DNA of 64,000 nucleotides, from positions 1-64,000 of the forward strand of contig NZ_JADDRL010000026.1 in assembly GCF_021538895.1 (NCBI RefSeq), in the 5' to 3' direction. The translations under genes were made by a program, and so were the position numbers. Source of the stretch: Streptomyces olivochromogenes. Its GTDB lineage: Bacteria; Actinomycetota; Actinomycetes; Streptomycetales; Streptomycetaceae. The notes under the pieces were generated by a model. That model worked only from the letters and a program-made list of their open reading frames with translations, had not been told where the DNA came from and made no database searches. Shown piece after piece: positions 7,573 to 13,610 of this stretch (positions are counted from its first letter, which is position 1; each line of letters starts with the position of its first letter).

Positions 7573-7968
7573 CTAGTGGCCGCCCTGTTCGTCTCGACGG
7601 CGCTGCCAGCGTTGTTCGATGCGGTCCATCATGGAGCGCTTCGGCCGCCCCTGCCGGCGCCCCTGCTGCGGGGCACCCGCGGGCTGCTCGCCCGGCTTGG
7701 GGGCCTTGCGCCAGCCCGTTACGGCGAGCACCGCACAACCCAGCATGACGAGGAAGCCCACCACGCTGACCCAAATCTGCTGTGCGACCATTCCGGCCAT
7801 GAGGAGCGCGATACCTACGAGGAAACCCACGACCGCCTGGTAGACCCGCCGTCGGGTGTACGTGCGCAGCCCGTTTCCCTCAAGCGCTGTCGCGAACTTG
7901 GGATCTTCGGCGTACAGCGCTCGCTCCATCTGCTCGAGCATGCGCTGCTCGTGCTCCGAGAGCGGCAC
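7573..7968 (-). CDS. DUF3040 membrane protein
   Basis: 131-residue actinobacterial protein. It starts with the family hallmark PLSEHEQRMLEQMERALYAEDPKFA, followed by two close membrane helices (about residues 43-65 and 66-85) and a basic Gln/Arg-rich tail. The GTG start at 7968 has AGGAGG six bases upstream. The biochemical function of DUF3040 is not known. It is transcribed towards the moxR operon and is separated from it by a long palindrome. Confidence 0.9.
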   Translation of the reverse strand: MPLSEHEQRMLEQMERALYAEDPKFATALEGNGLRTYTRRRVYQAVVGFLVGIALLMAGMVAQQIWVSVVGFLVMLGCAVLAVTGWRKAPKPGEQPAGAPQQGRRQGRPKRSMMDRIEQRWQRRRDEQGGH

Positions 7969-10005: not shown

Positions 10006-10031
10006 TTTTGCACTGACCAGTCAGTTCAAAA
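10006..10031. promoter_or_regulatory. Probable TetR-family operator controlling the ABC/YhgE/TetR operon
   Basis: A 26-base dyad: inner arms ACTGAC and GTCAGT around a CA centre, one mismatched pair, then outer arms TTTTG and CAAAA. A second degenerate half-site (GTCGGTTCAAAC) follows directly at 10035-10046. It ends 27 bases before the first gene of an operon whose last gene encodes a TetR repressor, so autoregulation is the natural reading. The symmetry is seen in the sequence; the identity of the binder is inferred. Confidence 0.72.
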
Positions 10032-10058: not shown

Positions 10059-10862
10059 GTGGACGGCGTCGCTGTCACAGCCGAGGGCCTGGGACTCAAA
10101 GGGCCTCGCGGCTGGGCGTTCCGCGGGATCACCGTCGATGCCGCGCCCGGCGCGCTGATCGCGGTGGAGGGCCCGTCCGGGTCCGGCCGCACCTGCCTGC
10201 TGCTCGCGCTCACCGGCCGTATGAAGGCCACCGAGGGGTCGGCGACCGTGGCCGGGGCACGGCTGCCCAAGCAGCTGGCCGCGGTGCGCCGCGTCAGCGC
10301 GCTGGCCCATGTCGCCGGGGTCACCGACCTGGACCCGGCCCTGACCGTCGGCGAGCACCTGCGCGAACGGGCGCTGCTGCAGCGGCGGTTCGGGGACTCG
10401 CTGCGCGGGCTGCTGCGGCCGCGCCGGGAGCGGTCCCTGGAGGCCGGCCTGCGGATCGAGGCCGCGCTGGCCGCCGCCGGGCTCGACCGGGAGGACCTGC
10501 CCAAGGGTTCCCGGACGGCCGTGCGGGACCTGGAGCGGATGGAGGCGCTGCGGCTCTCCGTCGCCCTGGCCCTCATCGGGCGCCCGCAGTTGCTCGGCGT
10601 GGACGACGTCGATCTGAAGCTCTCGGGCACGGAGCGGGTCGAGGTCTGGAAGCTGCTGAAGTCCCTGGCCGACGCCGGGACGACGGTCGTCGCGGTGTGC
10701 AGCGAGGCCCCCGAGGGCGCCGTCGTCGTGCGCACCGGAGCGTCCGCGGACGACGCGCCGGCCGCGAAGGACGCCACGGCCGCGGACGAGAAGAACACGA
10801 CGGACGAGGGCAACGAGGGGAAGGAGGCCGGCGATGCGCTCGTCGCGACTGGCCGCGCTTGA
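10059..10862 (+). CDS. Degenerate ABC-transporter-like ATP-binding protein
   Basis: 267-residue ABC-fold protein. The Walker A site reads GPSGSGRT, with Arg in place of the nearly invariant Lys. The signature region is LERMEALRLSVALALIGRP instead of LSGGQ, and the Walker B end is LLGVDDVD, with Asp where the catalytic Glu normally sits. These changes suggest weak or no ATP hydrolysis. The C-terminal 45 residues are Asp/Ala/Lys-rich and disordered. GTG at 10059 has a GGGGGG ribosome site. The end overlaps the YhgE-type gene by 29 bases, so the two are probably made together and interact. Confidence 0.75.
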   Translation: MDGVAVTAEGLGLKGPRGWAFRGITVDAAPGALIAVEGPSGSGRTCLLLALTGRMKATEGSATVAGARLPKQLAAVRRVSALAHVAGVTDLDPALTVGEHLRERALLQRRFGDSLRGLLRPRRERSLEAGLRIEAALAAAGLDREDLPKGSRTAVRDLERMEALRLSVALALIGRPQLLGVDDVDLKLSGTERVEVWKLLKSLADAGTTVVAVCSEAPEGAVVVRTGASADDAPAAKDATAADEKNTTDEGNEGKEAGDALVATGRA

Positions 10863-12918
10863 GCTGAGGCGGTTCGGCCGGGGGAAGCTGCCGCGTGCCG
10901 CGCTGGTCGCGCTCACGGTGCTCCCCCTGCTCTACGGCGCCCTGTACCTGTGGTCCTTCTGGGACCCGTACAGCCGGCTCGACCGCATCCCCGTGGCGCT
11001 CGTGAACGACGACCGGGGGGCGACCGCGGCCGGCAAGAAGGTCTCGGCGGGCGACGACATCGTCGCGGGACTGCGCGACAGCGACACCTTCGAGTGGCAC
11101 GAGGTGAGCGCCCGTGAGGCGCGCCGGGGCGTCGAGGACGGCACCTACTACCTCTCGCTCACCATGCCCACCGACTTCAGCCGGCGCGTCGCCTCCAGCT
11201 CGGGCAGCTCTCCCGAGACGGGCGCCCTCCAGGTGCGGACGAACGACGCCAACAACTACATCGTCGGGCAGATCTCCCGGACGGTGTTCAGCGAGGTGCG
11301 CACGGCCGCGTCCACCAAGACGTCCCGGTCCTTCCTGGACCGGATCTTCATCTCCTTCTCCGACATCCACGGCGAGACCGTGAAGGCCGCGAAGGGCGCC
11401 GACAAGCTGAACGGCGGCATCGGGAAGGCCGAGCGGGGCTCCAAGGACCTCGCCGACGGCCTGACGGACGCCAAGAGCGGCAGCGGCAAGCTCTCCAAGG
11501 GCCTGAAGAAGCTCAACAAGGGCGCGGGCGACCTGGAGGACGGCACGAAGCGGGTCGCCGAGGGCACGCAGACCCTGGCCGACAACGTCAACGGGGTCTA
11601 CGCGAAGGCCGGCCCGTTCGTGAAGGACAACGAGAAGACCATCGGCGACACGGCCCAGCTCGTCGCCGACTCGGCCAAGGCGGTCCGCCACAACCTCGAC
11701 GTCCTGGTGAGGACCGCCCCGACCGCCGCCAAGGCCGCCCACGCGGCCTCCACCACGCTGAACGAGGTCTACACGGCGCGCTGCGAGACCGCGACGCTGC
11801 CCGACGTCATCTGCCCGGACCTGAAGAAGGCCAAGGAGGCCGCCGCCGACGTCGCGACGATCGCGGACGACCTCAACACCCTGATCGCCGACCAGGACGG
11901 GGACCTGAAGACGCTCCGCGCGAACCTGAGCACGCTCCAGAAGCAGGCCCAGGGGCTCGCCGACCGCTCGCCGCACCTGTACGAGGACATCGACGACGCC
12001 GTCAAGCGGATCAACCGGCTGAACGACGGCGCCGGCAAGGTGGCATCGGGCGCGAGGCAGCTGCACACCGGGCTCGGCACGGCCAGGACCGGCGCGACCG
12101 ACCTGGACGAGGGCGTCGGCAAGCTCAAGACCGGCGCCGAGGACCTCAACGGCGGCATGTACAAGCTGGTCGACGGCTCCGGAAAGCTGGCCGGCGGGCT
12201 GCACGACGGGGCGCGGCAGATCCCCGACTACGACCGGCAGGACCGCGACCGGCGCACCGGGGTGATGGCCGACCCGGTCCAGCTCGCCGCCAAGGACCTG
12301 CACAAGGCACCCAACTACGGCACCGGGTTCGCCCCTTACTTCATCCCGCTGTCCCTGTGGGTGGGCGCGATGGTGGCGTACATGCTGATCCCGCCGCTCA
12401 ACCGGCGTGCCCTCGCGGCCGGTTCGGCCGCCTGGCGGATCGCGCTGGCGGGCTGGCTGCCGGTGGTGGCGGTCGGCGTGGTGCAGACCCTGGCCCTGAT
12501 GTCCGTCCTGCACTGGGCGATCGGCCTGCAGCTGGCGCGGGCGGCCGGGACGGTCGGCTTCCTGTGCCTGGTGACGGCGTGCTTCGCGGCGCTCGTGCAG
12601 TGGCTGAACGCGCGCTTCGGAGCGGCGGGCCGGATCCTCGTCCTCGCCCTGCTGATGCTCCAGCTCACCTCGGCCGGCGGCACCTATCCCGTGCAGACCA
12701 GCCCGGGCTTCTTCAACGCGATCCACCCCTTCCTGCCGATGAGCTACGTCGTCGCGGCCCTGCGGAGGCTGATCACGGGCGGCGGCCTCGGCCCGGTGTG
12801 GCAGGCCTGCGCCGTGCTGTTCGCCTTCACGGCCGGTGCCCTGGCGCTCACCGCGCTGTCCGCCCGCCGCCGCCAGGTGTGGACCCTGGACCGGCTGCAC
12901 CCGGAGCTGAGCCTGTGA
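10834..12918 (+). CDS. YhgE/Pip-family membrane protein
   Basis: 694-residue membrane protein. It has one N-terminal helix (ALVALTVLPLLYGALYLWSF), a large extracytoplasmic region of about 480 residues and five C-terminal helices (about residues 505-680), the YhgE/Pip (ABC-2-like) layout. The middle repeats a Lys/Leu/Gly-rich heptad-like pattern (GSKDLADGL, GSGKLSKGL, GAGDLEDGT, GATDLDEGV) typical of the family and expected to form long helices. AAGGAGG precedes the ATG at 10834, inside the upstream gene. Relatives include the phage infection protein Pip; the physiological role is unclear. Confidence 0.88.
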   Translation: MRSSRLAALELRRFGRGKLPRAALVALTVLPLLYGALYLWSFWDPYSRLDRIPVALVNDDRGATAAGKKVSAGDDIVAGLRDSDTFEWHEVSAREARRGVEDGTYYLSLTMPTDFSRRVASSSGSSPETGALQVRTNDANNYIVGQISRTVFSEVRTAASTKTSRSFLDRIFISFSDIHGETVKAAKGADKLNGGIGKAERGSKDLADGLTDAKSGSGKLSKGLKKLNKGAGDLEDGTKRVAEGTQTLADNVNGVYAKAGPFVKDNEKTIGDTAQLVADSAKAVRHNLDVLVRTAPTAAKAAHAASTTLNEVYTARCETATLPDVICPDLKKAKEAAADVATIADDLNTLIADQDGDLKTLRANLSTLQKQAQGLADRSPHLYEDIDDAVKRINRLNDGAGKVASGARQLHTGLGTARTGATDLDEGVGKLKTGAEDLNGGMYKLVDGSGKLAGGLHDGARQIPDYDRQDRDRRTGVMADPVQLAAKDLHKAPNYGTGFAPYFIPLSLWVGAMVAYMLIPPLNRRALAAGSAAWRIALAGWLPVVAVGVVQTLALMSVLHWAIGLQLARAAGTVGFLCLVTACFAALVQWLNARFGAAGRILVLALLMLQLTSAGGTYPVQTSPGFFNAIHPFLPMSYVVAALRRLITGGGLGPVWQACAVLFAFTAGALALTALSARRRQVWTLDRLHPELSL

Positions 12919-13610
12919 CCTCGCCCGAGGCCCCCGGTTCCGGGTCCGCCGGGCAGGCCGTTCCTGTGAGAATCGGGGGCATGGAAAGCAGCAGCGCCAC
13001 GTCCGGCGGCAGCACCCGCCGCGAGGCCACCCGGCAGAAGCTCTACGAGGCCGCCGTCACGCTCATCGCCGAGCAGGGCTTCTCCGCCACCACCGTGGAC
13101 GAGATCGCCGAGCGGGCCGGGGTCGCGAAGGGCACGGTCTACTACAACTTCGCGAGCAAGTCGGTCCTCTTCGAGGAGCTGCTGCGGCACGGCGTGGGGC
13201 TCCTCACCGCCTCGCTGCGGGAGGCGGCCGAGCTGACCGAGCGCACGGGCGGCAACAAGGTCGACGCGCTGGACGCGATGGTCCGCGCCGGGCTCGTCTT
13301 CATCGACCGCTACCCGGCCTTCACCCAGCTGTACGTGGCGGAGCTGTGGCGCACCAACCGGGCCTGGCAGTCCACACTGATGGTGGTCCGGCAGGAGGCC
13401 GTCGCCGTCGTGGAGGGCGTGCTGCGCGACGGCGTGGCGAACGGCGAGTTCAGCGAGGAGATCGACGTCCAGCTGACGGCGGCCGCGCTGGTCGGCATGG
13501 TCCTGGTGGCCGCGCTGGACTGGAAGTCGTTCCAGCCTGAGCGTTCCCTGGACGACGTCCACTCGGCGCTGTCCCGCCTGCTCCAGGGCCGGGTGAGCGG
13601 CAGGCGCTGA
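12915..13610 (+). CDS. TetR/AcrR-family transcriptional regulator
   Basis: Classic TetR repressor with the helix-turn-helix at RREATRQKLYEAAVTLI through GVAKGTVYYNFASKSVLFEELL, followed by an all-helical ligand domain. GTG at 12915 overlaps the YhgE stop (GTGA), gives 231 residues and keeps Streptomyces codon bias, so coupling is likely; an ATG at 12981 (209 residues) is an alternative. As the last gene of the operon it probably represses the operon through the dyad at 10006-10031. The inducer is unknown. Confidence 0.9.
   Translation: MTSPEAPGSGSAGQAVPVRIGGMESSSATSGGSTRREATRQKLYEAAVTLIAEQGFSATTVDEIAERAGVAKGTVYYNFASKSVLFEELLRHGVGLLTASLREAAELTERTGGNKVDALDAMVRAGLVFIDRYPAFTQLYVAELWRTNRAWQSTLMVVRQEAVAVVEGVLRDGVANGEFSEEIDVQLTAAALVGMVLVAALDWKSFQPERSLDDVHSALSRLLQGRVSGRR

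Follow-up and report, generated by a model that had tools for sequence, protein, structure and literature searches.

The DNA analysed here, a 64,000-nucleotide stretch of a Streptomyces olivochromogenes genome (contig NZ_JADDRL010000026.1, positions 1 to 64,000; hereafter the window), carries a three-gene operon on the plus strand at 10059–13610, in which a gene for a protein resembling an ATP-binding cassette (ABC) ATPase is followed by a gene for a YhgE/Pip membrane protein and then by one for a TetR-family regulator, with a near-palindrome lying upstream. These features are listed in Table 1, with the TetR start taken as the ATG at 12981. A first-pass annotation of the window had claimed that the first two genes overlap by 29 bases, and they do (10834–10862). 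The source genome is a draft of 10.2 Mb in 281 contigs. The ATPase-like protein combines the predicted fold of an ABC nucleotide-binding domain (NBD) with the loss of its catalytic motifs, and is called the pseudo-NBD below.

Table 1 Features of the pseudo-NBD, YhgE and TetR operon and of its upstream region, in window coordinates.
Feature	Position	Strand	Basis
Near-palindrome TTTTGCACTGACCAGTCAGTTCAAAA, 26 bp	10006..10031	.	candidate operator, presumably bound by the downstream TetR
Palindrome core ACTGACCAGTCAGT	10012-10025	.	exact in 76/80 upstream regions
Pseudo-ABC nucleotide-binding domain protein, 267 aa	10059..10862	+	ABC_tran 41 bits; AlphaFold2; Foldseek
Walker A remnant GPSGSGRT, Lys to Arg (codon 10188-10190, R44)	10170..10193	+	sequence; Arg in 54/54 Streptomyces
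Arg54 (R54) codon, GR[ML] after P-loop helix, pseudo-NBD family hallmark	10218..10220	+	Arg in 96% of 72 members
Signature place, LERME instead of LSGGQ	10530..10544	+	sequence; full signature in 0/71 relatives outside the genus
Walker B LLGVDD, catalytic Glu to Asp	10590..10607	+	sequence; Glu in 1/71 relatives outside the genus
YhgE/Pip membrane protein, 694 aa	10834..12918	+	TIGR03061 and TIGR03062 above cut-off; ABC2_membrane_3 86 bits
Helical hairpin, xxxLxxG heptads, YhgE residues 162-462, predicted outside the membrane	11317..12219	+	model; TIGR03057
YhgE C-terminal membrane domain, ABC-2 like	12262..12876	+	TIGR03062 240 bits (residues 477-681); hydrophobic stretches within 499-678
TetR-family regulator, 209 aa	12981..13610	+	TetR_N 66 bits

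Both sequence and predicted structure assign the 267-residue protein to the ABC NBD fold. Its ABC_tran (PF00005) score exceeds the gathering cut-off of 25, and an AlphaFold2 model built from 56 sequences shows an NBD (predicted local distance difference test, pLDDT, 86.5; predicted template-modelling score, pTM, 0.82) with a low-confidence tail at residues 241–267. FtsE is the best Foldseek match of this model (6z4w, E 1.6e-14, TM-score 0.70 by target length), the NBDs of ABCA4 and ABCA3 rank first among solved structures for the sequence profile, and the first NCBIfam model is drrA, at 49 bits far under its cut-off. The first-pass annotation had noticed that the Walker A lysine, the LSGGQ signature and the catalytic glutamate are missing, and the segments concerned indeed read GPSGSGRT, LERME and LLGVDD; the Q-loop glutamine and the H-loop histidine are absent as well, with serine at the H-loop place, so that none of the four marks of a functional ABC ATPase (Walker A Lys, LSGGQ, catalytic Glu and H-loop His) is present. 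As a control, we took ordinary NBDs of the source genome, the best 30 of 150 scored and thus biased towards canonical ones, and found that, with any frame allowed, all 30 carry GxxxxGK[S/T] close to where the match begins. A parse restricted to the matched frame, which gave nothing for two of the 30 loci, probably through use of the wrong strand, recovered the lysine in 28, SGG in 27, DE in 28 and the H-loop in 26.

The motif state and the gene arrangement are conserved within Streptomyces. The ATPase-like protein (E<=1e-30) and YhgE (E<=1e-60) were each found in 163/199 Streptomyces genomes, and the two full genome lists, compared by eye, are identical; when 17 genomes lacking the ATPase-like protein were searched with YhgE at E<=1e-20, 16 gave no match and one (G010) a distant relative with 38% identity. 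Among 54 distinct Streptomyces sequences of the ATPase-like protein, some of which are paralogues from one genome, arginine at the Walker A position and DD in Walker B are universal, and SGG occurs in the signature region of none. We compared the 80 best of 552 relatives, named loci whose titles all give Streptomyces. The ATPase-like gene lies upstream of YhgE in every one of them, and TetR starts between −7 and +83 bases from the YhgE end; 75 loci have an overlap of exactly 29 bases and two of 14, and in three it is not clear, owing to a run of N (L294) or odd open reading frame (ORF) ends (L252 and L276). A frameshift or assembly artefact in the window was rejected because orthologues share the motif state and the overlap. 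Median ratios of non-synonymous to synonymous substitution (dN/dS) were 0.31 for the pseudo-NBD (2191 pairs) and 0.37 for YhgE (3160 pairs), as a simple Nei-Gojobori count that is crude in GC-rich DNA and over non-independent pairs, and the pseudo-NBD is under purifying selection, not a recent wreck. Two loci have unusual frames: in L252 the single ATPase gene is split over two frames, and in L054 (genome G119, Streptomyces) ATPase-like and YhgE-like stretches share one open frame, either a fusion or an assembly fault.

Outside the genus, the YhgE N-terminal domain was detected in 53/246 genomes of the phylum (E<=1e-10) and 144/393 of the class (E<=1e-28). From the hits listed at both levels, 100 non-Streptomyces regions were hand-picked for diversity, and the fractions below are therefore not population estimates; the profile used for finding NBDs in them was itself partly derived from loci among the first 40 regions. 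Immediately upstream of YhgE, 74 cases show an NBD-like ORF, and 71 of these entered a motif census, the remainder being two L205 copies re-fetched in L234 and one NBD broken over two frames (L193_4979). The Walker A position holds lysine in 10 of the 71, arginine in 37 and another residue in 24, and the P-loop is canonical in 10, matches a relaxed GR[S/T] pattern in 38 and departs from both in 23, degenerating as far as AETEQRPT. Walker B Asp is present in 45, glutamine in the Q-loop segment in three, histidine within positions 212–217 near the H-loop in four, and the catalytic glutamate in one (L237, VDEAD), whose Walker A residue is arginine. No relative has the complete motif set or a full signature; a loose search for SGG or LSG strings flagged 17/71, of which only two are partial motifs (LSG or ISG) at the aligned signature position. 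The first-pass annotation had named orthologues with canonical Walker A and signature as what would speak against its claim, and of these two features the former survives in 10/71 and the latter, in full, in none. In three regions (L193, L195 and L205), two pseudo-NBD and YhgE modules flank one TetR gene, the first NBD of L193 being the one broken over two frames.

The most eroded of these small proteins are still recognisable as ABC NBDs. A group of 16 (A4) aligns to the Streptomyces profile with an hhalign probability of 99.0% (E 3.2e-18), and in a PDB search with its own profile the top-ranking entries are ABC ATPases (best E 2.6e-6); neither test uses the NBD-finding profile, although the A4 members were picked with it. 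These matches indicate that the fold was kept while the site was lost. Read singly, 8/16 A4 members give an ABC_tran match at E up to 1, and L122 gives none. The small proteins before YhgE in L122, L124, L127, L211, L240 and similar loci are thus eroded NBDs by profile comparison that single-sequence Pfam searches often miss, and erosion explains why Pfam does not see such proteins as ABC domains (8/16 eroded members tested). Over 72 sequences, four positions are nearly invariant: G53 (99%), R54 (96%), G60 (99%) and A171 (97%). The residue equivalent to R54 in the 30 ordinary NBDs is Leu in 18, Phe in six, Met in three, Ile in two, Glu in one and Arg in none, and since R54 was gained and then held, this comparison of sequences suggests a new role.

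The YhgE protein itself matches models of two families. TIGR03061 (194 bits, cut-off 96) and TIGR03062 (240 bits, cut-off 102) place it in YhgE/Pip, with nine stretches matching the xxxLxxG repeat model TIGR03057, and the ABC-2 permease model ABC2_membrane_3 also scores above its cut-off (86 bits versus 31.6); nowhere else in the genome is the TIGR03062 cut-off exceeded, six weaker places falling below it. A structural model has a transmembrane helix at 18–42, a small alpha/beta domain at 52–136, a helical hairpin (helices 162–318, 327–353 and 355–462, forming arms 162–318 and 327–462) and membrane helices at 500–678. Local pLDDT is 75–84 for residues 211–420 and about 46–66 near the hairpin base. 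The giant extracytoplasmic coiled region described in the first-pass annotation is thus supported by a model whose global confidence is low. At 0.15 nm per residue, the first arm of the hairpin in this low-confidence model would measure ~23 nm and could cross much of a Gram-positive wall.

We built a quick tree of 114 YhgE proteins (midpoint root, long branches flagged, support by the Shimodaira–Hasegawa-like approximate likelihood-ratio test, SH-aLRT, only), leaving out L129, L145, L153, L154, L155, the L234 copies and pieces below 500 aa. In the main clade, 71/79 YhgE proteins other than that of the window have an NBD-like ORF directly upstream, and none was found for eight. Together with the identical 163/199 Streptomyces genomes, this makes the co-occurrence of the two families, a check that the first-pass annotation had proposed, strong. 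The lysine state needs at least five changes on this tree, with the direction from Lys to Arg resting on a canonical ancestor. The other clade holds 33 YhgE rows without an NBD, 32 of them from tandem YhgE pairs, 30 of which lie outside the window's class. Tandem genes of this kind, without an NBD directly upstream, occur in L130, L133–L143, L146, L148, L149 and L230, in genomes of the same phylum and another class, except L230, which is of the same class. The tree separates first from second copies, in two groups of 16, which suggests a heteromeric YhgE pair.

In eight loci (L132, L144, L150, L152, L217, L218, L223 and L227), YhgE is directly preceded by a gene for an MMPL protein that carries the NBD-like domain at its C-terminal end. 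By Pfam, MMPL scores 258–310 bits in 8/8 of these fused proteins and ABC_tran exceeds its cut-off in 5/8; in L144, L150 and L152, which give no ABC_tran match, the NBD was identified by the family profile, with an A4–A5 hhalign link of 92.8%. The fused loci require two changes on the YhgE tree and fall in one group of nine with an SH-aLRT support of 98. MMPL was rejected as a general partner: the 100 regions contain it fused in eight cases and free in one (L212), and at the profile used it is absent from 80/80 Streptomyces loci. In L212 the MMPL-like ORF lies ~1.9 kb after YhgE, behind TetR and on the minus strand at the low end, and the NBD is not fused. According to the available passages of PMC9782250, Saccharopolyspora hirsuta F1721_04135 (YhgE/Pip) and F1721_04140 (MMPL), which are neighbouring locus tags, are induced 3.82-fold and 3.33-fold with cholesterol. 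This co-induction would lend independent support to a link between YhgE and MMPL.

The near-palindrome upstream of the operon is conserved. Its core ACTGACCAGTCAGT was sought in 80 upstream regions (the window and 79 Streptomyces loci, one locus having been dropped when its Walker A fell off the script's pattern), of which 79 carry it within one mismatch and one with 6 mismatches; it also occurs in 3/395 windows drawn at random from these loci, and such windows may overlap with the site. The draft genome contains a single exact copy, and four one-mismatch sites compared with 3 for a reversed control pattern. We considered a wider TetR regulon, but the single exact copy of the proposed operator points to a regulator that probably acts on its own operon alone. 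The named families nearest to this TetR are FadR, a fatty-acid regulator (71 bits, cut-off 200), and the ScbR type (64 bits, cut-off 150), a weak hint that its ligand may be hydrophobic.

On balance, we consider it fairly probable that the operon encodes an envelope complex derived from an ABC-2 exporter, in which the motor has become a conserved pseudo-ATPase that serves YhgE as a scaffold, clamp or switch. YhgE would be a permease-like protein of ABC-2 fold, probably a homodimer, with its long hairpin possibly reaching into or through the cell wall, and the 267-residue protein would sit beneath it as a cytoplasmic NBD partner, probably coupled to it in translation, that keeps the NBD fold and has gained R54. 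From sequence and gene order, we infer that the pseudo-NBD is catalytically dead, unable to run a normal ABC hydrolysis cycle, and that it physically binds YhgE. In lineages that retain a P-loop, such as Streptomyces, it may bind nucleotide and act as a switch gating YhgE, while in lineages that have lost it, it may act only as a clamp or scaffold. If the complex transports a cargo at all, it would have to draw its power from another source, for which the MMPL pump is a plausible candidate in the fused clade; the fusion hints at how a machine of this type might be driven. TetR would repress the operon through the promoter palindrome and be released by a ligand, perhaps a hydrophobic one. If this is true, the locus would have a sole NBD gene that is inactive and has repeatedly lost its P-loop, and yet is kept, which suggests a transporter rebuilt by evolution to work without its own engine, in a pair retained in Streptomyces and many other actinobacteria.

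Several observations weigh against this interpretation. The eight main-clade YhgE proteins that lack an upstream NBD indicate that the partner is not always needed, and motifs do survive among the 71 relatives, with Walker A kept in ten, the Q-loop Gln in three, the H-loop His in four and the catalytic Glu in one, in each case in different proteins. The YhgE model is poor overall (pLDDT 66.4, pTM 0.36), and a Foldseek search with it gave no match at E<=0.001; the weak matches, which carry little weight, are mostly coiled coils, headed by chemoreceptor coils; an MmpL5 complex from mycobacteria ranks fourth (E 5.9e-3, TM-score 0.12 or less) and an ABC-2 transporter outer domain (3cni) twentieth (E 0.087). 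Furthermore, the changes from Lys to Arg and from Glu to Asp are conservative, making residual slow hydrolysis possible, and catalysis might be provided in trans by a canonical NBD from another locus.

Pursuing the last point, the degenerate NBD might pair as a heterodimer with a competent one encoded outside the locus, an arrangement we regard as unlikely even though degenerate sites commonly have a canonical partner. No second ABC-like gene was found in the 80 Streptomyces loci (~12 kb or less each) with pseudo-NBD family profiles, which could miss a very different NBD; another ABC-like ORF flanks the locus in five of the 100 other regions (L141, L142, L148, L192 and L226), never directly beside YhgE, and three of these five regions lack the pseudo-NBD. 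A P-loop that fits no relaxed pattern, as in 23/71 relatives, also argues against such pairing. We see a similarly small chance that the protein is a slow but active ATPase within an ordinary ABC exporter of divergent motifs. The Streptomyces sequences leave room for this: 54/54 retain the P-loop glycines with GRT and the Walker B Asp, with an acidic residue where the Glu would stand, and the exchange of Glu for Asp is described as common and conservative in degenerate sites in the available text of PMC7756269; the signature, Q-loop and H-loop are, however, all missing together, and the P-loop is lost in other lineages with the same gene order. That the pseudo-NBD is a decaying leftover heading for loss, with YhgE acting alone as in the NBD-less lineages, would fit the eight main-clade and 33 other-clade YhgE proteins without an NBD, 32 of the latter from tandem pairs, but is very improbable given a dN/dS of ~0.31, its presence in the same 163/199 Streptomyces genomes as YhgE and a conserved arginine that the 30 ordinary NBDs lack.

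Within the interpretation we favour, of an exporter-derived complex with a pseudo-ATPase partner, a broader and more doubtful picture can tentatively be drawn. Actinobacterial envelope machines derived from ABC-2 exporters may have given up ATP, with a pseudo-NBD adaptor holding the membrane domain of YhgE and, in one clade, welded to the end of a proton-driven pump of the MMPL (RND) type, such that proton motive force would reach a conduit of ABC fold whose hairpin spans the wall; the YhgE proteins that stand alone in other bacteria would then mark where this path ends.

Among the surroundings of the operon, a MraW methylase is encoded at 511–1464 (−) of the window, ~9 kb away; MraW usually belongs to the division and cell-wall cluster. 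A scan of 11 neighbouring window ORFs for parts of a type VII secretion system (T7SS) found none, with a Pfam match in 7/11 and no match in 4/11, three of which may not be genes; the scan left out plus-strand ORFs between 3720 and 8106. A DUF3040 protein (7573–7968) was considered as SepX and dropped, as DUF3040 was not found in the available part of the SepX paper and a passage search did not find the locus. A plasmid search gave 19 records, every one below 60% identity.

Among the closest known systems is the YhgE/Pip family (known as the phage infection protein in Lactococcus and Enterococcus; PIP family, TCDB 9.B.74), with which the membrane protein of the operon shares both family domains, a large heptad-repeat outer region and a layout of the six-transmembrane type. 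From what is available of PMC4999554, enterococcal PIP is needed for phage infection, as is its counterpart in lactococci, the YhgE/PIP domain has no known function, the C-terminal part was read as a major facilitator superfamily domain, and the authors speculate that the protein transports small molecules or takes part in type VIIb secretion. PIP homologues are said, in the accessible text of PMC3924187, to include putative ABC-2 superfamily transporters, and isolates of Enterococcus faecalis less sensitive to ginkgolic acid carry a mutated YhgE gene, as stated in the part of PMC8754111 available. Unlike the proteins described there, the YhgE studied here forms a two-gene unit with a pseudo-NBD; the available passages of PMC4999554 and PMC3924187 mention no NBD partner, and the open literature searched, which excludes subscription papers, yielded no description of the pair. 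YhgE also has an N-terminal domain related to that of EsaA/YueB of type VIIb secretion, but membership of that system was rejected, with TIGR03929 at 57 bits against a cut-off of 122 and no T7SS genes among the neighbours scanned.

The likeness to MMPL (RND) systems is limited to the clade with the pseudo-NBD fused to the MMPL C-terminus and contrasts with the absence of MMPL genes from the Streptomyces loci. Exporters of the ABC-2/ABCA type (DrrAB-like) share the NBD fold, the ABC2_membrane_3 permease and the order of NBD gene before permease gene, and differ in retaining the Walker A Lys, signature, Q-loop, catalytic Glu and H-loop that the pseudo-NBD lacks, and here there is one NBD gene only. 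The same motif losses are seen in degenerate-site exporters (ABCB2/B3, Pdr5, ABCG5/G8 and TM287/288), including, in the text available from PMC7756269, the exchange of the Walker A Lys for Arg in ABCG5/G8. In those well-known cases, according to the same text, a canonical second site accompanies the degenerate one, whereas the sole NBD gene of the YhgE locus is itself degenerate, so that a homodimer would have two dead sites. YhgE/Pip proteins are widespread, and their tie to a conserved pseudo-NBD places the family in an ABC-exporter lineage.

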